From positions 24,070-61,378 of IMG/VR virus record IMGVR_UViG_3300030101_003894: DNA of 37,309 nucleotides; one strand, written 5' to 3'. Both the position numbers and the translations under genes were made by a program. This document shows, piece by piece, positions 349 through 26,480 of this stretch. Source of the stretch: a virus. The notes under the pieces were generated by a model, which had not been told where the DNA came from, did not search any database, and saw only the letters and a list, made by a program, of their open reading frames with translations. The stretch's first letter is position 1, and every line of letters begins with the position of its first letter.

Positions 349-2556
349 TTATTTAATTATTTCTGAATGCAATCCTTTATTACTAAATCTTGATATTTTT
401 AAATCTAATGTTGGTTTTTCGTATTTAGGTTTTGGATGATATAAGTTTCTATTGCATGCCATAATAGCAAGCCCTGAACTAATAGAAGCATCATATTTAG
501 TTCTTCTATTTATATCAAACTTAGCCCAATCATTTAATGTTTTGTTAAAATATATATTACCACCGCCTTCTTCTGTTATGCCTACATATTTTTGTATATA
601 TGTTTCAATAGCAGCAGCATGCGCTTGTTTTATATCTTCTGATGTATTAGGTATACCACCTATTTCTTTTTCAGTTACAGATAACTTATTCCAAAGTTTA
701 TCTGGCCGGTTCATTGAAAATTGTCTATAACCTCTTCGTTTTAAATAATATAACAAACGCGGTTTATTATTTTCTGCAAGTATTGGCATTCCATAATATA
801 CTAATGACATTAATACATCTTCAAAAAATAACTCTGCTGTTTGCGGCCTAGCTATATATTCTAAAAAAAATGTATTAGGTGGTGCATCTTCCATACTAAA
901 CTTAGTTAAACCGTGAAGTGCACCTTTTGAACCTTGTCCATCAGTTGTTCCAGAAATATCATAAGAATCGCATCCAAATGCACCCATATGCTCATTACCT
1001 GGATATTTAATCCCTTGCTTAGTTATTACATTGTTTTCAAGGTTCTTAGGCGGTGTCCAGCTAATTAAAAATCTGCCGTTTTTATTTGGTGTAAATAATA
1101 CTTTTGTGTCTTTAATACCATTTTCCCAAATAAAAGATCCTCGATTTATAAAACCTTTTCTTTCTAGATCTTCATTATAATCAATTTGCTCGTATATTTT
1201 AGTTAAATTAAATATACTATTTTTAGCTTCATCTCTAAATGCGTGCTCTTCTGTTCTAGGAAACTGCCTATAATATTCATTTAAACCGTCAGAATCATGA
1301 CGTAATCCTTCAACTTCGTTTTGCCAAAAATCTATTACCCCCGTTTCAATTTCGTATCCATCATGGTCAATAGCGGGTACTTCTGGCGTATCAAACACAG
1401 GGTGTCCATAAGTATCAATGTATCCTTCGTAGTTCCATTCCATAGGTATGAACAAAGAATATAATCCTGAACTAGTCTGGCCATTTTTATTTCTTTTGAT
1501 AACGTCTGAGTCATAATATAGTTTTTTAAAGTTATCTCCTCCTTTATCTAATGAATTTGATGTTGAGCCCATCATACATTTTCCTATAATTCTGCTACCT
1601 AATCTTAATGTAGTTTTTGTAACTCGCCAGTTATTTAATATATTATCAGGTCTTTCCCATTTCCCTGATTCATCATGTATTAATAATCTTAACTTCTCAC
1701 CATCATAACTGTTATCTCCCGTATTTTTCCAGTCAATAGTTGTATCTAATCCTTCTAATATTTGTTTTTCTTCAGTATTCGTGATGGATTTTCTGGTAAG
1801 CTTGGAAGCTGGGACTCTATACGCAAGCTCTGTTTTGGGACGATCCATTCCGTCTTGTATCGGTTTGAAAAAAAACGGGTAATTGACCGATATGGGTACA
1901 ACTTTGTCGGTGAACATTTTCTTAGCATCAGCGCCAGATTTGGACAATATCCCGAAGCGTGCGTCTGAAGTAATTGTTGCCTGAGCGACGGATTCAGCCG
2001 AAGACATAAATGAGAACCCAGACCTTCTGTTTTTAAGATAGCACATTCCATAACATCTATTGTCGGCCTTACACGCTTCCCAGAAGATATAGAATATTCT
2101 ATTAGCTTCCCTGTACTCTGGCTTCCCAACATCAATTTTGGTGTGTTGCAAGTACATATAATGAGAACCAGTAATATAAATAGGAATATTTTTATTATAA
2201 AACCAATAACCTTCTTCTCTTCTAACAAATTCTCTATCAATATATGCATACCATTTATTTTTAAAAGCTTCTGGATACGATTCCCAATCAAATATTGTTG
2301 CTATTTGCTTTAATTCTTTTGGATATATATGCGCTTCCCATTTATTATTATTATTATCAATACTTTTAGGTTTGGCGGGTAAAGCAATTTTTAAATTTTG
2401 TATTTCAACAATTTCACCTACAGTACCGTTTTTACTAATTATAATAATATCAAATTCTTTATTATAACCATATTTCCATTTTTTATATCTATTATTTTTT
2501 TTAATAATATTTTCTTTTACAGGAAATATTGTTTTAATTAACGTTTGCTCGTACAT
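349..2556 (-). CDS. terL: Terminase large subunit (packaging ATPase/nuclease)
   Basis: 735 aa. This is the motor that pumps DNA through the portal and cuts the concatemer. The ATPase part has a Walker-A-like loop at residues 175-184 (KNRRSGFSF, lacking the canonical GKT/S), then the strongly conserved block SDARFGILSKSGADAKKMFTDK, and a Walker B with catalytic Glu at 291-296 (LLIHDE). The nuclease part shows the acidic motif AFGCDSYDISG (about residue 530) and a late Asp in TKYDASISSG. The start overlaps the preceding stop by one base (TAATG). Codons 170-260 (about 1775-2050) use clearly more G/C-ending codons than the rest of the gene. Family assignment is firm; catalytic residues are assigned by pattern only. 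Confidence 0.93.
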   Translation of the reverse strand: MYEQTLIKTIFPVKENIIKKNNRYKKWKYGYNKEFDIIIISKNGTVGEIVEIQNLKIALPAKPKSIDNNNNKWEAHIYPKELKQIATIFDWESYPEAFKNKWYAYIDREFVRREEGYWFYNKNIPIYITGSHYMYLQHTKIDVGKPEYREANRIFYIFWEACKADNRCYGMCYLKNRRSGFSFMSSAESVAQATITSDARFGILSKSGADAKKMFTDKVVPISVNYPFFFKPIQDGMDRPKTELAYRVPASKLTRKSITNTEEKQILEGLDTTIDWKNTGDNSYDGEKLRLLIHDESGKWERPDNILNNWRVTKTTLRLGSRIIGKCMMGSTSNSLDKGGDNFKKLYYDSDVIKRNKNGQTSSGLYSLFIPMEWNYEGYIDTYGHPVFDTPEVPAIDHDGYEIETGVIDFWQNEVEGLRHDSDGLNEYYRQFPRTEEHAFRDEAKNSIFNLTKIYEQIDYNEDLERKGFINRGSFIWENGIKDTKVLFTPNKNGRFLISWTPPKNLENNVITKQGIKYPGNEHMGAFGCDSYDISGTTDGQGSKGALHGLTKFSMEDAPPNTFFLEYIARPQTAELFFEDVLMSLVYYGMPILAENNKPRLLYYLKRRGYRQFSMNRPDKLWNKLSVTEKEIGGIPNTSEDIKQAHAAAIETYIQKYVGITEEGGGNIYFNKTLNDWAKFDINRRTKYDASISSGLAIMACNRNLYHPKPKYEKPTLDLKISRFSNKGLHSEIIK

Positions 2557-2831
2557 TACCTAGATCTTTTTTCAGCAAAACCGCTAAAGCTTTTTTTATC
2601 TTCAATCGGTTTATCTTCCATAATATTTTTTTCTGTTTCTATACGAGAAAGTATTTCAAATGCATCAAATATTGCAAGCTTTTTTGTGGCTGCAGCATTT
2701 TTTAATCTATCTGCTGCTAGTTCATCTTCTCCACCATCTACAATAATTTCTTCTTCGGCTACACGTATAAGCTCATGAACAGCTTTATAGCCAGCTTGGA
2801 TTATATTCGACTTCAGTTCCTTTTCTGTCAT
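2556..2831 (-). CDS. Small protein upstream of terL; candidate terminase small subunit
   Basis: 91 aa, acidic and predicted largely helical (KAVHELIRVAEEEI, then AADRLKNAAATKKLAIFDAFEILSRIETEKN), with a basic tail. It sits directly before terL with a one-base TAATG overlap, and its first 47 nt overlap the preceding gene. Size, helical character and position are those of a small terminase, which would select the DNA to be packaged. No DNA-binding motif is recognisable, so this is positional inference. Met1 is used because the only later Met is near residue 71. Confidence 0.6.
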   Translation of the reverse strand: MTEKELKSNIIQAGYKAVHELIRVAEEEIIVDGGEDELAADRLKNAAATKKLAIFDAFEILSRIETEKNIMEDKPIEDKKSFSGFAEKRSR

Positions 2832-3381
2832 ATTTAATTGAAATAGAATTTAATGGTACACGATATAATCTTTCATTATCAATAACAAATTCATATTCGC
2901 TATTTGGTGTAAAACCAACTAAATCATTAATTTTTAAATTAAAGCTTCTTAAATCGCGCCCTAAGTGCTTTAAAACGCCTGTTAAAGGCTTTTCTTTTTG
3001 ATCAGATAAAATATTATCTTCTAAAATAGGCTTTACAAAGCAAAAACCGTTAGGTGCATACCATTTATTATTATGTTTATACAAAAATATTTGATCATCA
3101 AAACAAAAGTACTTATCTTCTTTAAAATAGCTCATACTATTTTTACTTTTTCCTTTCATATCATAAAACCTTCTGAATACATTGTGATGTACTATAACTG
3201 TATCGCCTATTTTAAGATTTGATTCTTTATTTATAGGTGTTTGTACAATTTTACCGTATCTATTTACAAATTTATGATTTTCAATTGATGTATTTAATAT
3301 TAAACTTGAATCACCTATTTTTTTATTGTTATTATATCTACCGTCAATAGGCTCAACAATATATGCATATAAATGTTTCAT
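2785..3381 (-). CDS. Conserved phage protein, possibly GroES-like fold
   Basis: 198 aa, no signal or TM segment. The segment LKIGDTVIVHHNVFRRFYDMKGKSK, followed by DDQIFLYKHNNKWYAPNGFCFVKP, looks like the 'GDxVIxxxxxG' strand-loop of Cpn10-type folds, and the N-terminus (YAYIVEPIDGRYNN) also reads like a Cpn10 first strand. This resemblance is weak and by eye. A clearer GroES is present at 13121-13381. It is joined by a one-base TAATG overlap to the 72-aa gene upstream and overlaps the small-terminase candidate by 47 nt. Function unknown; a chaperone or head-assembly role is only a guess. Confidence 0.6.
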   Translation of the reverse strand: MKHLYAYIVEPIDGRYNNNKKIGDSSLILNTSIENHKFVNRYGKIVQTPINKESNLKIGDTVIVHHNVFRRFYDMKGKSKNSMSYFKEDKYFCFDDQIFLYKHNNKWYAPNGFCFVKPILEDNILSDQKEKPLTGVLKHLGRDLRSFNLKINDLVGFTPNSEYEFVIDNERLYRVPLNSISIKYDRKGTEVEYNPSWL

Positions 3382-5853: not shown

Positions 5854-8800
5854 TTAACTAAATGTTATTGTTCCTGTTCCTGCGGTAAATGTTGTTATTT
5901 TATCAGAACCGTCTGTAGCAGTTGTTCCAGTTAATCCAGAACCTATTGTTATTGTTTTAGTATTGGGGTATCTCAGTATAACTACTCCAGAACCACCAGC
6001 ACCTCCATAATATGATGTATTATTACCAGCTGAACCACCACCGCCACCACCAGTATTCGCAGTACCAGCTGAACCTCCGCTGTTTTGTGATTGACCTCCA
6101 GCACCACCTCCACCAGAGCCTCCTTGGCCTCCAGATTTGTTATTATCATGGCTAAATCCACAACCTCCACCTCCACCTCTTGTTACGGCAGATCCTGTTA
6201 TAGATGAACTCAGTCCATTCCCTCCATTAGCACCACTGTCACTAGCATTGCCACCTACAGCACCTGCACCCCCACCACCCGCAGATCTATAAGGAGAACC
6301 AGAATCACCAGTACCTCCAGCATATCCGTGTACAACAGGTGAAGTAACTGCCGCTGCTCCTGGATTTGATGTATTATATATACCACCACCACCACCAGAG
6401 CCCCCTGATGTAGGTTGAGTTGATACTCCAGCACCGCCACCACCTCCAATTGATGTAATTGTAGCAAAAACAGAACTAGATCCTTGGAGCCCTGTTGCAC
6501 TAGTTCCGCTAGCCGCTGCTGCACCTGCTCCTACTGTTACAGTATAATTTGTATTATCTGCAAAAGCAAAACTTGATTCCGAAGAACCACCACCTCCTGT
6601 TACAGACCCATAAGAAGTTCTATAACCACCAGCACCAGCTCCTCCACCATAATTATTACCACCAGATCCACCACCAGCTACTACTAAATAATCTAGTATT
6701 AATTGTTCAGTGGTTTCAAATGTTATATTGCCTGTTCCTGATGTAAATGAAGTAATTCTATCATTTCCGTCTGTAGTAGTTGAAGAAACTAATGTTCCTC
6801 CTACATGCACATAATAGTTAGATGGATATCTAAGTATCACTATACCTGAGCCTCCAGCTCCACCACCTCTATAAGCACTATCGTAACCACCACCACCTCC
6901 ACCAGAGCCGCTATTAGCTGTTGCATCAGTACCATTTGTTGGAGATGTTGCTACACCAGATCCACCTCCTGCCGCACCAGTTCCAGGTGTTAAAATAGAA
7001 GGTTTGCCTGGTCCACCACCCCCACCTGCTCTTGTTATAGATGATCCTGTTATAGATGAAGCTAGACCAGCTCCCCCGTCTCCAGATGTATTGCCTCCTG
7101 TACCATTGCCTCCAACTCCTCCAGCACCTCCACCACCGGCACCAGGATAACCTGAAGCTTGTGGTTGTCCATTTCCTCCAGCATATCCCTGGTTTGCAGT
7201 ACCAGCAGCTCCATTAGATTGATTTCCTGATGATGAACCTCCACCACCAGACCCACCTATATTAGCCAAGTTACTATTATGTGCAGATCCACCTCCACCT
7301 CCAACAGAAGTTATAGAAGCAAAAACTGAATTAGCACCATTGTTTCCATTTGAAGTATAAGTTCCATCCGCAGTTGCTGCTCCTCCAGCTCCTACAGTAA
7401 CAGTATAGTTAGTTGATAATGATAAATTTGTTAATGCCGATTCAGAAGATGCACCACCTCCTGACTGTTCATTATTATATGAATTTCTATATCCACCAGC
7501 ACCACCTCCACCACCTAAAGCAGCACCACTACCTCCACCTGCTATTACTAAATAATCTACTACTAAAGGATCTATATCTTCCTCTAAAGAACCAGGTTTT
7601 GAAGCAACCCAGCCTTTTGTAGCATCTGAATAAACAAGAATTGCTGAATTTTTATTTGTTTTTATTGCTTTATTATCACTAGAGCCTTCAATATTATTTG
7701 AACTTGTTATAACAATTTTATTAGTTCCAGCAGTCCCTGAATAGTCAAGTAATTCAATAGTATCTCCTAATGATGGGTTTGATGGCAAAGTAACGGTAAT
7801 TTGAGCTGAAGTAGTATTAACAAAATAACCTTTACCAGCTGCTGCTGTAAAGTTTGATGTTTGTATTGTTGATTGCCAATCAGTGCCCGCTGCTGTTTGA
7901 TTTCCAACTGTTATACTATTAAAAGCCATAACTTCCACGCTAAATCCAGTTTGAGGCGCAGTCGTAAATGTTATTTGATTTCCTGATATAGCATAAGTTG
8001 ACTTTTCTTGGTAAACACCTTGTATAAATACAAATGTTTTTGCTTCATCATCAATTGTTTGAGACAAAGTAAATGCCGTTGTAGACCCATTGCCTGTAAA
8101 ATTGTTTTGATTAATTGATGTTGCATTAACTGCTTTTATATGAACAACCTCTACGGCAGCACCGTTTGGTGGAGCGGTAGAAAACGTTAATGTACTGCCA
8201 GAAGTTGTATAATTGTCTTTACTTTGATATACTCCATCTAAATATACTTGCGTGGCATTTTCATCTGAAATAGTCATAGAAAGAACATATGCTGTAGTTG
8301 AGCCGTTACCAGTAAAACTATCTCTTGCAATAACACCTGATGTAGAAGCCATGTGTATAAGTTCTACAGATGTGCCATTAGCAGGTGCAGTAGAAATTGT
8401 TACAGTGCTTGCATTAGTTGTATAGTTATCTTTAGATTGATAAACACCATCTAAATATACTTGTACATTATTTTCATTTGCAATTGCAGATGCAGTATTG
8501 AATGTAGTAGTTGATCCGTTTGCTGTATATACATTTTTTTCTACAGTAACAGTACCACCACTGCTGCCTCCACCTGTAACATTAATTGTTTTTGTTGCAC
8601 CGGTTCCAGATGCTGTAACACCTGAACCTGTAAAATTTAAAGTTGTTGCAGCTGTAGATAAAGCACTACCCTCATCTTGTACAGTTAGTGCCCCACCAGA
8701 TGCAGCAATAGTAACTTGTTGTGAATCATTTCTAGTAAGAGTTATATTACTGCCAGCGGTAAGTTGCACTGTTGAATCAGTACCCGACGCAGCATCTAAT

Positions 8801-9279
8801 TTAATATCAACATTGCTACCATCTTGTGTAGCATTAATAGAGTACGTATCACCTATAGTCCCTGTGCCATATTTAGTACAGCTGCCCATATAGCCATGAT
8901 TAGAGCATTGATAATGCAATACCGGGGGTATAGAATATGTTGGTGTTATTTGAGTATATGCACCAGATGTTCCAGGAGTGCCATTAGTGGTTACTCCAGT
9001 TGTATACTGAGTTGTTTTAGCAGCATCTTCATAAAATCTAAGTGGATGTCCATTGTTTGAACTATCTGATTGATCAAATTTATATGTATTTCCAGGAGTA
9101 AATTCTAAATAAGGACTTTCAACACCATTTATAGTATAACCTAAAGCGCTACCAACTCCAAAATATGGATGCGCGGCTGTTTTAGTTACAACTTTAACTA
9201 TTATTACTTGAGCGGAATCACTATGTGCTATAGCACGATGAGCCGACAGCTCTAGTGGCGATTGTAATTTAATGCCCAT
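5854..9279 (-). CDS. Giant modular tail fibre: cupredoxin-like domain, three repeats, two Gly-rich tips
   Basis: 1141 aa. Residues 35-142 look cupredoxin-like: GHPLRF (His78) and HYQCSNHGYMG (Cys125, His128, Met131) form a His/Cys/His/Met set. Residues 250-453 hold three tandem repeats of about 60 aa, each with 'GNGSTTxF...VYLDGVYQSKDNYTT...STAP.NG..VE'. About 466-565 is a beta module (TDWQSTIQTSNFTAAAGKGY), then two Gly-rich adhesin domains (about 575-830 and 860-1100, opening with VDYLVIAGGG and LDYLVVAGGG), each closed by a 'RYP...TTxDGxDxIT' strand set. Expected at the virion tail tip for receptor binding. Copper binding is inferred from residue pattern only. Long Gly-rich DNA (GGT/GGA repeats) makes the gene prone to recombination. 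Confidence 0.85.
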   Translation of the reverse strand: MGIKLQSPLELSAHRAIAHSDSAQVIIVKVVTKTAAHPYFGVGSALGYTINGVESPYLEFTPGNTYKFDQSDSSNNGHPLRFYEDAAKTTQYTTGVTTNGTPGTSGAYTQITPTYSIPPVLHYQCSNHGYMGSCTKYGTGTIGDTYSINATQDGSNVDIKLDAASGTDSTVQLTAGSNITLTRNDSQQVTIAASGGALTVQDEGSALSTAATTLNFTGSGVTASGTGATKTINVTGGGSSGGTVTVEKNVYTANGSTTTFNTASAIANENNVQVYLDGVYQSKDNYTTNASTVTISTAPANGTSVELIHMASTSGVIARDSFTGNGSTTAYVLSMTISDENATQVYLDGVYQSKDNYTTSGSTLTFSTAPPNGAAVEVVHIKAVNATSINQNNFTGNGSTTAFTLSQTIDDEAKTFVFIQGVYQEKSTYAISGNQITFTTAPQTGFSVEVMAFNSITVGNQTAAGTDWQSTIQTSNFTAAAGKGYFVNTTSAQITVTLPSNPSLGDTIELLDYSGTAGTNKIVITSSNNIEGSSDNKAIKTNKNSAILVYSDATKGWVASKPGSLEEDIDPLVVDYLVIAGGGSGAALGGGGGAGGYRNSYNNEQSGGGASSESALTNLSLSTNYTVTVGAGGAATADGTYTSNGNNGANSVFASITSVGGGGGSAHNSNLANIGGSGGGGSSSGNQSNGAAGTANQGYAGGNGQPQASGYPGAGGGGAGGVGGNGTGGNTSGDGGAGLASSITGSSITRAGGGGGPGKPSILTPGTGAAGGGSGVATSPTNGTDATANSGSGGGGGGYDSAYRGGGAGGSGIVILRYPSNYYVHVGGTLVSSTTTDGNDRITSFTSGTGNITFETTEQLILDYLVVAGGGSGGNNYGGGAGAGGYRTSYGSVTGGGGSSESSFAFADNTNYTVTVGAGAAAASGTSATGLQGSSSVFATITSIGGGGGAGVSTQPTSGGSGGGGGIYNTSNPGAAAVTSPVVHGYAGGTGDSGSPYRSAGGGGAGAVGGNASDSGANGGNGLSSSITGSAVTRGGGGGCGFSHDNNKSGGQGGSGGGGAGGQSQNSGGSAGTANTGGGGGGSAGNNTSYYGGAGGSGVVILRYPNTKTITIGSGLTGTTATDGSDKITTFTAGTGTITFS
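5871..5986. repeat. Fibre-module repeat, copy B
   Basis: Partner of the repeat at 4341-4456; same orientation. Recombination between the two would delete or swap the 124-aa gene and a Gly-rich tip. Confidence 0.7.
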
Positions 9280-10818: not shown

Positions 10819-11238
10819 TTATCTGTGTTTATTATTACCGAAAACTTTTTCTACACCGCGTGATCCAAAATAGCCTCCTATTACGATTGTTAAGAGTCCT
10901 GTAATATTTTCTAAAGGGTATCCTAAATACCAGCCAGCTACATAACTTACTGTTAAAAATACTAAAGTTAAAGGCCTTACATTTGCCGCAAGCCACGATC
11001 CTGATCTTGCATCTGCGACCCAACGTTTTGTTGTGCCATCTATTTCAGCTCTTTCTAATTCTAATTTTTTTAATGCTATCTGTTTATCGCTATCACTCAT
11101 ATCGCTACCACCTATGATAGCTTGTATAACTGATCCTACAGGTGTGTCACCTGCTATAGCACCAACAACATTAGGTATTTTATTCAAAAGAAATTGACCG
11201 ACTTGTGTGTCTTTAAATTTCTTTTTTTCTTTAGACAT
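10819..11238 (-). CDS. Holin, 3TM family
   Basis: 139 aa. A helical N-terminal half (SVIQAIIGGSDMSDSDKQIALKKLELERAEID) leads into RSGSWLAANVRPLTLVFLTVSYVAGWYLGY and ITGLLTIVIGGYFGSRGVEKVF. The 'S(W)xAANVRPLT' turn and C-terminal hydrophobic segments are characteristic of 3TM holins like those of gene-transfer agents. It would permeabilise the inner membrane to release the M15 endolysin encoded nearby. It overlaps the upstream 59-aa gene by one base. Strong family resemblance. Confidence 0.82.
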   Translation of the reverse strand: MSKEKKKFKDTQVGQFLLNKIPNVVGAIAGDTPVGSVIQAIIGGSDMSDSDKQIALKKLELERAEIDGTTKRWVADARSGSWLAANVRPLTLVFLTVSYVAGWYLGYPLENITGLLTIVIGGYFGSRGVEKVFGNNKHR

Positions 11239-11434: not shown

Positions 11435-11755
11435 TTAACAATTCCAACGGCGCCTTGCCGCTTTTCCTCTTTCGCTTGTCCAACTTCTTGAACGTGCACA
11501 AAAAGATTTTCTTCTTTTAGCAGCTTTACTTCCTGGTTTTAATTTACTAGGAGGTGTTGTAACTGCTGTTTTTAATTTGCTACCTGGATTATCTCTACGA
11601 TATTTAGCAACACCTTTTTTAGACATACCCCCACCTGCATCTGCACCAGTACCTGTTTTATTAGCTTTATTATAATAGCCTAAAGATTTTTTCTTTGAAG
11701 GAGCCGGTGGCTTTTTTCTTTTTTGAATAGGTGATGTTACAATATTATAATTCAT
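11435..11755 (-). CDS. Small basic protein with C-terminal Cys motif, 106 aa
   Basis: Extremely Lys/Arg rich (pI well above 10). Conserved-looking parts are MSKKGVAKYRRDNPGSKLKT and a C-terminal KSFCARSRSWTSERGKAARRRW ending NC. Related C-termini ('FCARxxxW...RRRWNC') occur in many marine phage and virus proteins of unknown role. It may bind DNA or RNA, or be packaged as a core protein. The first 11 bases overlap the endolysin gene. Function unknown. Confidence 0.68.
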   Translation of the reverse strand: MNYNIVTSPIQKRKKPPAPSKKKSLGYYNKANKTGTGADAGGGMSKKGVAKYRRDNPGSKLKTAVTTPPSKLKPGSKAAKRRKSFCARSRSWTSERGKAARRRWNC

Positions 11756-12209
11756 AAGGTAAATATTTTGTTTTGCCGTTTTCTCTTATAGCTTTTAAAA
11801 CATTCATTCTGTTTTTAGCTAATCTATAACTTACGTGTACCCAGTCTGGTTGTTCATTATCTCCGAACTCCCATATCAATTGATCAAACTCTAATTTATC
11901 TTTTATATAATTAAAAAAATCTGCATTATTAGCTTTGCTATACACATCATCAATATCAATTGCTTCACCTAAACAATGCTGCGACCGGGAACTTCCCCCA
12001 ATCGCTGTATTTAATTCAGGTGAACGATAAAATGAAGATATATAAATAGGTTCATTAAAATTATTGCGTAAAGGTTCAAATATATGTTCAGCTGTTATTT
12101 GCATAGTTATTAGTGTATCATTATCAGGCATATTTTCTATACCTAGTCTTCTAGCTGTATTTGATCTTAATGCTTCTTTTAATGTTATGTGATCAGAAAT
12201 TTTAACCAT
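11745..12209 (-). CDS. Endolysin, M15-family zinc peptidase
   Basis: 154 aa. Cleaves peptide cross-links of peptidoglycan at lysis. Motif SRSQHCLGEAIDIDD carries His78 and Asp85, and PDWVHVSY carries His125; together these form the M15 Zn-binding triad, with Glu114 (IWEFGD) as a likely catalytic base. The N-terminal helix pair (LKEALRSNTARRLGIEN, then ITAEHIFEPLRNNF and ISSFYRSPELN) is that of Peptidase_M15_3. No signal peptide, so it should depend on the holin at 10819-11238. Family assignment firm. Confidence 0.88.
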   Translation of the reverse strand: MVKISDHITLKEALRSNTARRLGIENMPDNDTLITMQITAEHIFEPLRNNFNEPIYISSFYRSPELNTAIGGSSRSQHCLGEAIDIDDVYSKANNADFFNYIKDKLEFDQLIWEFGDNEQPDWVHVSYRLAKNRMNVLKAIRENGKTKYLPYEL

Positions 12210-12360: not shown

Positions 12361-12684
12361 TTATTTTTTTGTTTGTTTTTTATATGCTTCTGCTTCCCAT
12401 TGTAATTTTGGATGGCCTTCTCTCATATTTTTTCTTGGGTACTTTTTACCTCTCCAATATATATTTTCATCATCATAACTTAAATCACCTCTGAGTATTT
12501 GATCTCTATGAACTCTTTCGTGACTTAATGCTATTTTTTGTTGGACCGGAGATAAATTTTTGTTAATAGCTATTGTGCCATCATCATAAGTAACTCCTTG
12601 TATATTAGGTGGCAATTTTGCTTTTTCAACAAGTCCGTTTTCCATTATTATTTGGCCAACTGACTTTTTCATTTTATAACCCAT
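12361..12684 (-). CDS. HExxH zincin-like protein, 107 aa
   Basis: SHERVHRDQILRGDLSYDDE contains H55-E-R-V-H59, the metallopeptidase HExxH motif, and a later Glu in WEAEAYKK could be the third ligand. A short N-terminal part (NIQGVTYDDGTIAINKNLSP) precedes it. The family is common in marine phages as an unassigned protein; it may be a structural-protein protease or a lysis enzyme. Met1 is used because it overlaps the upstream stop by one base (TAATG); Met5 is an alternative. Confidence 0.72.
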   Translation of the reverse strand: MGYKMKKSVGQIIMENGLVEKAKLPPNIQGVTYDDGTIAINKNLSPVQQKIALSHERVHRDQILRGDLSYDDENIYWRGKKYPRKNMREGHPKLQWEAEAYKKQTKK

Positions 12685-13124
12685 TATCTTTTTAAATCTT
12701 TGTTCATATCGTCAATAGCTTTGTTATATACTTTATCTGTATAACTATTGTTTTTATTAAATACACTTCGTCTAGAAATAGGTAAATCTTCTTGTCCAAG
12801 AAGTATTCTATATATTCTACTTATTATGTATTTACATTTTGTAGATACTTTATAAACATTAAATTTAATTGTAGTATGATTTCTTTTAGCATATATTTGT
12901 ATCCAACCATCTTTACGCAATCGTTCCCAACGGTGTTTATCCCATGAATATATATACGTACCTTTTATATAATCATTACGTGTAAACCTCTCAAGACAAT
13001 CAAAATGAATTAGTAATTCTAATTCAGCGTCGGTTAAATTATAAGTTTTACATGCCCACTTTCTAATAAGCCTGTAATACTTAAATAAGCCTATATTTCT
13101 TAAATGATCTGGTTGTATTTTCAT
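12684..13124 (-). CDS. Hypothetical protein, possible winged-helix regulator
   Basis: 146 aa. Order and spacing of helices are MarR-like by eye: YNLTDAELELLIHFDCLERF, then WDKHRWERLRKDGWIQIY (helix-turn-helix plus wing) and FNVYKVSTKCKYIISRIYRI. The polar C-terminus has IDDMNKDLK. The start overlaps the GroES stop by 4 nt (ATGA). It lies inside the late operon, so a DNA-binding role in late regulation or packaging would be possible. Weak evidence. Confidence 0.6.
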   Translation of the reverse strand: MKIQPDHLRNIGLFKYYRLIRKWACKTYNLTDAELELLIHFDCLERFTRNDYIKGTYIYSWDKHRWERLRKDGWIQIYAKRNHTTIKFNVYKVSTKCKYIISRIYRILLGQEDLPISRRSVFNKNNSYTDKVYNKAIDDMNKDLKR

Positions 13125-13381
13125 AATACAACTACAACATCTTGTTCTTTTATTACGAGATAATATCCTTTTTCAAATTCAATACCGTAGCCAGCATGCT
13201 TATCATAATATATTATGTCATCTATATTTAATCCAGATATTTCACTTCCTACAGATATTACTTTAGCTTTTTTATATCTAATATCATTTTGATGCTTATC
13301 AGTAATTATTAATCCTGATTCTGTAGGTTTTATTTCTTCTTTTATTGCGTCAATGATTATAAATTTATTTACTGCTTTCAT
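13121..13381 (-). CDS. groES: Co-chaperonin GroES
   Basis: 86 aa, normal Cpn10 size. N-terminal strand AVNKFIIIDAIKEEIKPTES leads to the mobile loop with the hydrophobic GLIITDKH segment that would contact GroEL. Then come YKKAKVISVGSEISGLNIDD and IIYYDKHAGYGIEFEKGYYLVIKEQDVV, matching the 'GxVxxVG...GDxVxxxxxxGxxxxxxxxxYxIxxExDI' core. It caps the GroEL ring encoded immediately upstream (4-nt overlap). Gene order is groEL then groES, reverse of the usual bacterial operon, so this is not a recent copy of a host operon. Confidence 0.85.
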   Translation of the reverse strand: MKAVNKFIIIDAIKEEIKPTESGLIITDKHQNDIRYKKAKVISVGSEISGLNIDDIIYYDKHAGYGIEFEKGYYLVIKEQDVVVVL

Positions 13382-14928
13382 TGTTCGCGAACATTAGATA
13401 TTACACAATCTGCTGACATTATTGTTGAAGCAACTGATGCTGCATTTTTTAATGCTGTTTTTGTAACCAGTACAGGATCTATAATACCTGCTTTAATTAA
13501 ATCTACTAAATTTCCTGTTATAACATTTATACCTTTACCTTTTTCTAAAAATGGTGCATAAGGGATGCTAGCATTATGTAGTATTACTTTATAAGGTGCT
13601 TTAATAGCTTCAGCTAATATTTTTTCAGATGTTTTAGACCATTTGATTTCTGTTGCAGCATTATGCAGCGCTATACCCGCACCTGGAACTATACCTTCTT
13701 TTAATGCGGCTTTTACAGCATAAATAGCATCTTCAACTCTATCTTTCTTTTCTTTTAGTTCAACTTTACTATTTGCACCCACAAATATTATACCAACAGA
13801 ACCTGAAAGCATTGCTTTACGATCTGTTAGTTTTTTTAACAAATAAGGATTTTTTTCTTCCTTAATTTGTTTTTCAATTATTTTAATTCTTTCTTTAGTT
13901 TCATCATTTATATTAGATGTAGTAATTACTGTATCTTTTTCGTCAGTAACCGCTTTAATAGCTTGACCTAATGCAGATGAATCTATAAGATCTAAATCAT
14001 CACCTAATTCTTCATTTATTACTTTAGCTCCTGTAACAACTGCTAAGTCTTCTAACATTTCTCTTCTTAAATTAGAAAAACCAGGCGGATCAATTACATT
14101 TACTTTTATATTACCTTTTGCTTTATTCATAATTAAAGCAGATAAAGGTTGTTGAGCAACAGGCCCAATAATAAGTATTGATCTTTTATTTTTTATAGCA
14201 TATTCAAGTACCGATTGGATTTTACGGATCGTTTCAATCTCCGTGTCCACCAATAAAATAAGAGGGTTGTCAAGAATAGCTTTATTTTTTTCCTTATCAG
14301 TAATGAAATATTGTGATTTAATTCCAGAATCAAATTTAACACCATCTACAATTTCTATATATGTTTTATCGTCTTCAGACTCTTCCATTAATACAACGCC
14401 ATCTTTGCCAACTTTATTATATGCATTAGATATTATATTACCAAGCTCAATGTCATTGTTTGCAGATATGTTAGCCACATGGTTTAACATCTCTTCTTTT
14501 ACTGGAATAGTTATTTTATCTAAATATTTTATTACTTTTTTAATAGCATTATTTATGCCGTCTTTTATATCTCTAAGATTATCTAATTGTGAATTAGAAT
14601 ATTCTTTAATAATGGAGTGGGCCAGTACGGTAGAAGTAGTCGTACCGTCACCGGCCTCTTTGACTGTTTTCTGAGCTGCCTCTTTAATGAGGGTTGCACC
14701 GATATTCTCGGCAGGGTCCATAAGGATTACGCTATTTGCAACAGTTACTCCATCTTTAGTTACTATTGGTCTTCCTGTGCCATCTTCGTATATAACACAT
14801 TTACCAGAGGCCCCTAAGGTAGATGAAACTGCATTATTTAGTTTATCTACCCCGGCCATAATTTTAGTTTTAGCGTTATTGCCAAAGTTTAAATCTTTAA
14901 CAATATCACTGGGATGATTGAATTCCAT
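13378..14928 (-). CDS. groEL: Chaperonin GroEL (phage-encoded)
   Basis: 516 aa (bacterial about 545). ATP-dependent folding ring. Recognisable parts are RPIVTKDGVTVA (Asp59, equal to E. coli D52); the nucleotide loop EAGDGTTTSTVLA (Asp94, equal to D87); apical-domain VIDPPGFSNLRREMLEDLAV; DRVEDAIYAVKAAL (equal to D398); and GIVPGAGIALHNAA. All catalytic Asp positions are kept. The usual Gly-Gly-Met tail is absent: it stops after STIMSADCVISNVREQ. Codons around 14600-14830 are more GC-rich than the rest. Likely helps fold capsid or tail proteins; active-site conservation argues for an active chaperonin. Confidence 0.92.
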   Translation of the reverse strand: MEFNHPSDIVKDLNFGNNAKTKIMAGVDKLNNAVSSTLGASGKCVIYEDGTGRPIVTKDGVTVANSVILMDPAENIGATLIKEAAQKTVKEAGDGTTTSTVLAHSIIKEYSNSQLDNLRDIKDGINNAIKKVIKYLDKITIPVKEEMLNHVANISANNDIELGNIISNAYNKVGKDGVVLMEESEDDKTYIEIVDGVKFDSGIKSQYFITDKEKNKAILDNPLILLVDTEIETIRKIQSVLEYAIKNKRSILIIGPVAQQPLSALIMNKAKGNIKVNVIDPPGFSNLRREMLEDLAVVTGAKVINEELGDDLDLIDSSALGQAIKAVTDEKDTVITTSNINDETKERIKIIEKQIKEEKNPYLLKKLTDRKAMLSGSVGIIFVGANSKVELKEKKDRVEDAIYAVKAALKEGIVPGAGIALHNAATEIKWSKTSEKILAEAIKAPYKVILHNASIPYAPFLEKGKGINVITGNLVDLIKAGIIDPVLVTKTALKNAASVASTIMSADCVISNVREQ

Positions 14929-14946: not shown

Positions 14947-15231
14947 TTACTTAAATGTTTTCACTACAATAGGTCCTTCTGTTAATTTAAGTTTTTTCTT
15001 GTAGTGTTCAATAGAAGAATCAATTGCTTTTTCAGCACCTTCTATTGTTTCACGTCTAGTTACACCCTGCCAGTTGTCATCATTATTAAATTCTGTTTGA
15101 TAAAAACCATTAGGCAATTGTGTAATTCGCCAGTTGCTTTTTTCAGCATATTCTTTCCAAAGGTTTTTGGTTTCTTCGGATACTTGTGGTTCGTTAGACC
15201 ATGTATTGGTCTTATAATAAAAATACGTCAT
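14947..15231 (-). CDS. Conserved hypothetical protein, 94 aa
   Basis: MTYFYYKTNTWSNEPQVSEE, WRITQLPNGFYQTEFNNDDNW, GVTRRETIEGAEKAIDSSIE and a C-terminal KKLKLTEGPIVVKTFK. The 'TRRxTIEGAExAIDxSIEHYKKxL' helix and the KTFK end occur in related marine phages. Soluble, mixed alpha/beta. It is the first gene of the chaperonin block (18 nt before groEL) and follows a 69-bp gap holding a candidate promoter. Function unknown. Confidence 0.72.
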   Translation of the reverse strand: MTYFYYKTNTWSNEPQVSEETKNLWKEYAEKSNWRITQLPNGFYQTEFNNDDNWQGVTRRETIEGAEKAIDSSIEHYKKKLKLTEGPIVVKTFK

Positions 15232-25140: not shown

Positions 25141-25750
25141 TAAAAAACTCGAGTATTTACATCGAAGACGTATCGTATATCGACGCGGACCAATAACTGA
25201 TACCCCTTCTGAAACTTTTAGTTGGGGTAATTTTTATGAGAACGGAACATACCAATGCTATGAATTATTTAGAACTAAGGCTAAAATAACGTCATATAAA
25301 TCATTTAAATGGCATTTATTAGTAATATGGTATTTAAATAAAAATTTAACATATGATAAAATTTTAGAATTAACATACTATCTTGCAGATAAGAATAACG
25401 GATTCGTAAGTATTAAATTAAGTAAAGCGAGTCTTAAAAATTTAGTGGATGATGTTTTTAATAGTGATTTAGAATCACCTCCTAAAAACAAAATGCGTAA
25501 GATTATATTTAAAGAAAGCTCTGGTCTTAACACTATTGAAAAATTAAAAATAGTAGGCCATATAATTGGTAAAAGAAAAAAAGCTGAACCTCCAGATATT
25601 TATGAGGCAATGCTTAATATACATAGTAATAATAATAAAATAACAATATCAAAAATTGCAAATGTATTAAATGTATCTACGCGAACTGTTTATAGAAACA
25701 TTACACATGAAATTAAGCAGGAAAAGATATTATTAAATGAAGAAGTATAA
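25133..25750 (+). CDS. HTH DNA-binding protein, candidate transcription switch
   Basis: 205 aa, basic. A C-terminal helix-turn-helix, KITISKIANVLNVSTRTVYRNI (about residues 172-192), of the type that follows 'IA..LNVS.RTVYR'. The N-terminal 130 residues (YRRGPITDTPSETFSWGNFY, then TSYKSFKWHLLVIWYLNKNL) have no recognised family. It is translationally coupled to the sigma factor gene (14-nt overlap). Its start codon is inside a 47-bp inverted repeat also present before the left arm, so it may regulate itself and the late genes. That regulatory link is inference. Confidence 0.65.
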   Translation: MSHKKLEYLHRRRIVYRRGPITDTPSETFSWGNFYENGTYQCYELFRTKAKITSYKSFKWHLLVIWYLNKNLTYDKILELTYYLADKNNGFVSIKLSKASLKNLVDDVFNSDLESPPKNKMRKIIFKESSGLNTIEKLKIVGHIIGKRKKAEPPDIYEAMLNIHSNNNKITISKIANVLNVSTRTVYRNITHEIKQEKILLNEEV

Positions 25751-26480
25751 CATAGAAAACTATGTTAGATTTAAAAACGATTTAGCAAGTTACGGTGATA
25801 ACCCTAACACAGGAGACGGACGAAAAGATTTAATTATTACGCATGTTGGTTTAGTTGAAACTATAGCAAGAAAGTTTTCAACTTCTCAACAGGCATCAGG
25901 TGTAATGACCATTAATGATTTAATACAAGAAGGAATAATAGGATTGATAGCAGCAGTAGATAAAATAGATTGGAATCAAATTACAGATTCAATAGATCCC
26001 CAGCGTACACTTAATAGTTTTTTAAGTAAACGTATTAAGGGAGCAATAAGAAGAGCTATTGATATTAACAGAGGTAATATACGTATACCTGAGCATAAGC
26101 TTAATGAAATGCGCAAAAACTCCGATGTTGAAAAGAAAACTGTTCAGATGTTTTTTAATAGTATATTTTATTCGTTAGATGAAACTGATCAAGATAATAA
26201 TACTTTTTTTGAAATGCCTGACAATACAAAAGAATACAATATAGATATAATGAATAAATATTTATTATCTATAATGGAAGCTCATTTAAGTATAAAAGAA
26301 TACGATGTATTAAGAATGAGTTATGGCCTAGATTGCGATAAAATGTCCGCAAAAGAAATAGCAGATAAATTAAATATTAAAGGGTCTGCTTCATATGTAA
26401 GAATTTCACAAATAAAACGTGATGCTATTGATAAGTTAATTGATACTGTTGATCCATCACAAGTTGTTGACTTTCTTTAA
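25737..26480 (+). CDS. Sigma-70-family RNA polymerase sigma factor
   Basis: 247 aa. Region 2: RKDLIITHVGLVETIARKFS, NDLIQEGIIGLIAAVDKID, then SFLSKRIKGAIRRAIDINRG and NIRIPEHKLNEMRK, which line up with sigma70 regions 2.1 to 3.0 (NLRLV..IA.KY, DLIQEGN.GL..AVDKF, RI..AI.R.I.....TIRIP.H). Region 4: YDVLRMSYGLDCDKMSAKEI, ADKLNIKGSASYVRISQIKR, matching the region-4 'R..ERIRQIE..A' helix-turn-helix. Region 1.1 and the full region 3 are absent. It would redirect host RNA polymerase to phage promoters; whether these are the 33-bp elements or late promoters is open. Confidence 0.85.
   Translation: MKKYNIENYVRFKNDLASYGDNPNTGDGRKDLIITHVGLVETIARKFSTSQQASGVMTINDLIQEGIIGLIAAVDKIDWNQITDSIDPQRTLNSFLSKRIKGAIRRAIDINRGNIRIPEHKLNEMRKNSDVEKKTVQMFFNSIFYSLDETDQDNNTFFEMPDNTKEYNIDIMNKYLLSIMEAHLSIKEYDVLRMSYGLDCDKMSAKEIADKLNIKGSASYVRISQIKRDAIDKLIDTVDPSQVVDFL

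Follow-up and report, generated by a model that had tools for sequence, protein, structure and literature searches.

Does a phage that encodes both GroEL and GroES operate a folding machine of its own, and where did it acquire these genes? We examined these questions in a window of 37,309 nucleotides (i.e. the whole stretch of DNA analysed), which covers 24070-61378 in a virus record of 61.4 kb. Its source is a virus of aquatic bacteria whose chaperonin-bearing relatives form a widespread aquatic podovirus family. We propose, with a probability of about 0.75, that the locus encodes a self-sufficient and virus-specific folding cage, driven by ATP and closed by its own lid. The features discussed below are the following:

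13378-14928, minus strand: groEL, a 516-aa group I chaperonin subunit with an intact ATP site, without GGM tail and with shortened ring-ring contact segments
13121-13381, minus strand: groES, an 86-aa co-chaperonin with a mobile loop carrying the hydrophobic motif GLIIT and a shortened dome loop
13378-13381, minus strand: 4-nt ATGA overlap of the groEL stop and the groES start, read 13381-13378
12684-13124, minus strand: phrog_17028, a 146-aa protein without assigned function that overlaps groES by 4 nt
12361-12684, minus strand: 107-aa protein (phrog_10499), next in the gene run and overlapping the 12684-13124 gene, HERVH motif seen by eye
14947-15231, minus strand: 94-aa protein immediately upstream of groEL, present in 54 of 74 related loci
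2785-3381, minus strand: second co-chaperonin-like protein of 198 aa in the terminase cluster, predicted tandem Cpn10 (Cpn20-like)
349-2556, minus strand: terminase large subunit (phrog_6681)
11745-12209, minus strand: peptidase M15 / endolysin, possible client
10819-11238, minus strand: holin-like protein (phrog_3427)
5854-9279, minus strand: tail-fibre-like protein of 1141 aa, possible client

The groEL-groES pair stands at the head of a tightly packed run of minus-strand genes. The open reading frames and the ATGA at 13381-13378 confirm the coordinates, strand, groEL-before-groES order and 4-nt overlap given in a preliminary description of this DNA. Its placement of the pair in the late arm is also reasonable by gene content: the endolysin, holin, tail-fibre-like, terminase and portal genes are found further on along the same strand, and the sigma-factor-like, exonuclease, primase/helicase and ribonucleotide reductase genes on the opposite one. 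The ATGA overlap suggests translational coupling of the two chaperonin genes. A scan for Bacteroidota-type promoter motifs revealed none that could serve groEL on the minus strand at 14.9-20.7 kb, and overall this motif shows little excess (9 observed versus 6.5 in shuffles). In the opposite arm, the product of 25737-26480 (plus strand) matches RNA polymerase sigma factors (phrog_351, E 7e-22) and may serve the phage's own promoters. Within the chaperonin gene run, the HERVH of the 107-aa protein is a possible HExxH metalloprotease motif.

The gene order, described earlier as the reverse of that of bacterial operons, is indeed so throughout the family. Scanning viral contigs with the window GroEL detected 68 loci, which together with further loci provide 74 viral pairs; the related viral GroELs are 55-84% identical to that of the window. 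In all 74 loci groEL precedes groES and overlaps it by 1-31 nt, whereas groES comes first in all 35 bacterial loci (30/30 from Bacteroidota and 5/5 from other bacteria). The reversed order is a family trait that was already present in deposited annotation, namely that of the elemoviruses and of the Manatee Spring podovirus. Furthermore, the 146-aa protein adjoins groES in 73 of the 74 related loci and also lies beside the pair in the elemovirus and Manatee Spring phages, although on the other strand. Chaperonin pairs had also been called rare in phages. This calls for some qualification: GroEL-like products are encoded in 289 of the 50,697 phage records, some of which are bacterial contamination, and within this podovirus family the pair is standard. 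The 22 related records with groEL, among 30 examined, leave eight that lack it; these are all 52.6 kb or shorter and are probably fragments rather than cases of gene loss.

Some loci depart from this scheme. In L063 (6001-7568), groEL is split into two overlapping ORFs by a frameshift or a sequencing error. L013 (10281-12314) contains a 677-aa ORF that begins as a tail fibre and whose final 450 residues are the end of a host-type GroEL, sharing about 65% identity with host GroEL; we judged this apparent second groEL to be an assembly chimera. In the phage collection, records L008, L123 and L124 (Acinetobacter phage MD-2021a, Salmonella, Enterococcus Efs) harbor a host-type groES-groEL pair that is probably bacterial DNA.

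The origin of the viral GroEL was explored by trees in which cells were represented by Bacteroidota and five others. Maximum likelihood recovers the window clade as monophyletic (100/100), with a long stem, and groups it with the elemovirus, Manatee Spring and Panino phages, then with phi38:1-type phages (99/97), apart from all sampled cellular GroELs. No grouping with EL or BpSp was seen, but their branches are very long. The clade still stands apart from the sampled cells once the long phage branches are removed (99/98). We thus reject a recent host capture, the clade lying outside all sampled cellular GroELs, unlike those of SJC03 and of a 735-kb phage, which are nested in Bacteroidota. The GroELs of Bacteroides phage SJC03 (L007), of the 735-kb phage (L125) and of a Vibrio phage (L009) nest in bacterial clades and represent separate, more recent captures.

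The view of an old and independent viral chaperonin therefore holds in part. Its age is supported by the monophyly (100/100), the long stem, the separation from all sampled cellular GroELs (99/98), the 55-84% identity and the conserved reversed operon. Independence from hosts does not follow from the trees: a tree that nests the clade within one Bacteroidota subclade, with the long phage branches free to move, withstands rejection (p 0.18). Absence of the GGM tail is a weak sign of independent origin, since host-derived phage GroELs (SJC03, Vibrio VaC) also lack it and many Bacteroidota tails are degenerate. Capture of the genes from a Bacteroidota host long ago, after which they diverged fast and the operon was rearranged, is compatible with the cage mechanism, and we give it even odds. 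Besides the nesting result, the viral GroELs side with Bacteroidota when set against the five other cells (98/93), and the closest solved sequence is a reconstructed ancestor of the Fibrobacteres-Chlorobi-Bacteroidetes (FCB) group. Elemovirus hosts are Bacteroidota, and two virus-clade contigs (G001:C26 and G001:C28, with loci L085, L086, L128 and L129) were binned into a Sphingobacteriales MAG, which suggests Bacteroidota hosts for the clade as well. G001:C28 is 63 kb long and many genes in its first 40 kb match the phage of the window. However, the best trees set the clade outside all sampled cellular GroELs (99/98), and forcing it together with all Bacteroidota cells, other phages being in the tree, is rejected (p 0.0001).

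Whatever its source, the GroEL gene is under constraint. The protein matches Pfam PF00118 over residues 30-512 (E 3.7e-52; 178 bits against a cut-off of 34.3) and exceeds the cut-offs of two NCBIfam GroEL subfamily models (459 versus 397 for NF000592), but falls below that of the stricter equivalog TIGR02348 (450 versus 582). All three domains are retained, identity with host GroEL being only about 40%. In E. coli numbering, the ATP-site residues T30, G32, D52, D87, G88, T89-T91, S151, D398 and D495 are all present in the window GroEL. They are unchanged in 57/57 full-length viral GroELs, including D52, D87, T89-91, D398 and D495, and the GGM tail is found in none of the 57; retention of the ATPase aspartates and loss of the tail, both noted before, thus extend to all of them. 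Substitutions between relatives are mostly silent (groEL dN 0.12, dS 0.80-0.97; groES dN 0.27, dS 1.46), and dN/dS values of about 0.12-0.19 for the two genes indicate purifying selection. These ratios and the invariant ATP site rule out a decaying gene. In the apical groove, L237 is kept, F204 is kept as F or L and V264 remains hydrophobic, and Y203 varies. Position 234, which is hydrophobic in GroEL, is Q in 57/57. Judging from the sequences, L234Q and the variable Y203 may make lid or client binding differ from the textbook case, and the presence of Q in every member hints at a private lid specificity.

The lid is likewise recognizable. GroES matches Pfam PF00166 (E 3.8e-10; 40.1 bits against a cut-off of 21.1) and keeps the hydrophobic tripeptide of the mobile loop (GLIIT, GLILT or GLLLA), with G23 invariant and L24 in at least 90% of the sequences. 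Its AlphaFold model (pLDDT 87.5) matches Cpn10 structures (1wnr: Z 11.6, rmsd 1.8, 75 aligned residues) and T4 gp31 (Z 10.1, rmsd 1.5, 64 aligned). The dome segment comprises 16 residues in 71 of 76 phage sequences versus 19-25 in cells (25 in Salmonella), the cellular loop being also fairly short (19-20 residues) in 10/35 sequences. The dome hairpin does not define a GroES since T4 gp31 lacks it; in T4 this lack helps to enclose a large capsid protein.

The preliminary description missed a further co-chaperonin-like gene product, that of 2785-3381. This protein adjoins the terminase, was found in 30/30 related records and belongs to PHROG 13932, named co-chaperonin GroES. The best match of its AlphaFold model (pLDDT 80.7) is Chlamydomonas Cpn20 (Z 10.0, rmsd 4.5, 157 aligned); single Cpn10 chains match the second half of the model at Z of about 7-8.7, with unrelated rows at 5.9 or less. 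A nearly invariant LILN motif in the loop of the first domain recalls the mobile-loop tripeptide of GroES. The Pfam match is below the cut-off and profile comparison with phage GroES gives 45% probability. Hence, a tandem Cpn10 is here a structural prediction, with weak support from sequence. A literature search for Cpn20 with phage brought up no tandem Cpn10 from phages, a result that does not prove their absence.

The clearest departure from GroEL lies at the contacts between rings. Compared with Salmonella GroEL, 18 internal residues are deleted, 15 of them at 106-107, 427-433 and 465-470. These deletions adjoin residues 105/109, 434 and 452/461-464, which make the ring-ring contacts. The contact residues are free to vary in the viral clade (452 is mostly K) and are conserved in cells, except 434. 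Moreover, segment 420-437 is reduced from 18 to 11-12 residues in the viral clade, segment 448-476 from 29 to 22-25 and segment 98-115 from 18 to 15-18; the control segments show no change in length. The 24 Bacteroidota cells have interface segments of canonical length (one with 30 residues for 29). Phage EL departs from GroEL at the end of helix D and in helix Q (462-471), and its double ring comes apart with ATP (PMC7185714). The deletions predict a single or labile ring, with a weak or absent double ring.

The invariant ATP site, the silent substitutions and the mobile loop and Cpn10 fold of GroES support an ATP-driven, lid-closed chamber. From the genes and their order, the ATP site, the lid-docking motif, the interface deletions, the conservation under purifying selection and the predicted folds, its operation can be proposed as follows. 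Since groEL and groES are co-directional and overlap, ribosomes could make first the barrel and then the lid from one message. Seven GroEL-like subunits would assemble into a ring, bind phage proteins that are unfolded and hydrolyse ATP, and the phage's own short-domed GroES would close the ring by docking through the mobile loop. As the contact segments are cut back, the rings would probably act singly or as a weak, transient double ring. The tandem-domain protein of the packaging cluster would probably provide an alternative or joint lid.

Virion proteins had been put forward as clients. They plausibly fit the arm in which the pair is located, but this attribution is a guess. The endolysin is as good a candidate, being a reported client of the phage EL chaperonin (PMC7185714, PMC9598537); by analogy and by its nearness, it is plausible too. 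Such phages inspire another reading, in which the ring, as in EL, OBP and AR9, would hold unstable phage proteins such as the endolysin and guard them from aggregation without encapsulation or true lid cycle. The ring interface is altered in the same elements as in EL (PMC7185714), the apical site carries L234Q and changes at Y203, and the endolysin gene lies about 1.2 kb downstream of groEL. However, EL, OBP and AR9 are reported to work without co-chaperonin (PMC9598537), whereas here every locus has a conserved GroES, its docking motif intact, that overlaps groEL, and the window GroEL is only 26% identical to that of EL, so that we hold this reading to be unlikely. Slightly less probable still is a new chaperonin architecture, in which a viral single-ring GroEL would be capped by a hetero-oligomeric lid of short-domed GroES and tandem Cpn10. 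If so, one GroES and three tandem chains, for example, would supply seven domains, and the cage would be enlarged for a capsid or tail-fibre client. Least probable of all is that the phage proteins form no machine of their own and instead mix with host GroEL rings, or modify these, so as to turn them towards phage clients: the degenerate ring-ring contacts, a second co-chaperonin-like protein that could act on host GroEL and the precedent of T4, which redirects host GroEL by means of gp31 (PMC6318259), would suit it, but the ATP site of the phage GroEL is complete, all three domains are present, identity to host GroEL is only about 40% and every locus pairs it with a private GroES.

The self-sufficient cage is thus our preferred reading. 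Some phages are known to have both GroEL and GroES (PMC7185714), and GroEL is known in marine Bacteroidetes phages (PMC5332604). Phage GroEL-GroES pairs and the groEL-first order had been recorded before; what this analysis adds is the operon shared across the family, the deletions at the ring interface, the shortened GroES dome and the predicted tandem second lid-like protein. The phage chaperonins studied biochemically work without a lid, and T4 supplies a lid alone. A family with a barrel, a lid, a second tandem lid-like protein and a reduced ring-ring interface can be viewed as a natural test of which parts of the GroEL cycle (two rings, tail, dome) are dispensable in encapsulated folding.

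Among known systems, the closest are those of other podoviruses. The window virus is elemovirus-like in having the terminase, the portal and the chaperonin module in common with the cultured Flavobacterium phages vB_FspP_elemoA-F. These also share the 146-aa neighbour, a groEL followed by groES with a 1-nt overlap and a 180-aa GroES-like protein beside the terminase, but their GroEL and GroES are only 37% and 34% identical to those of the window, and the pair and the late genes occupy opposite strands. Since elemoviruses are in culture, the role of the chaperonin can be tested through deletion. Manatee Spring podovirus ctfjg026 (MW202828) has the same gene order on the late strand, a tandem GroES-like protein, an M15 peptidase and a terminase 62% identical to that of the window, but 36% GroEL identity and no deletion at 420-437. 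Cellulophaga phages phi38:1 and Calle_1 (Pervagoviridae) and related ocean genomes (PMC5332604) are likewise Bacteroidota phages with GroEL and Cpn10, and their GroEL groups with the window clade (99/97); however, groES is upstream, with one gene between, beside DNA replication genes. The EL, OBP and AR9 chaperonins are also phage-encoded and ATP-dependent, with an altered ring interface (PMC7185714, PMC9598537), but belong to giant phages with no co-chaperonin reported, whereas GroES overlaps groEL in 74/74 loci here. T4 gp31 shares the phage GroES fold but acts on host GroEL, T4 having no GroEL of its own. Finally, chloroplast Cpn20 (7ekq chain R), the best fold match of the 2785-3381 product, also has two Cpn10 domains per chain, but it is a plastid protein with 14% identity to the viral one, in which the loop of the second domain looks degenerate.
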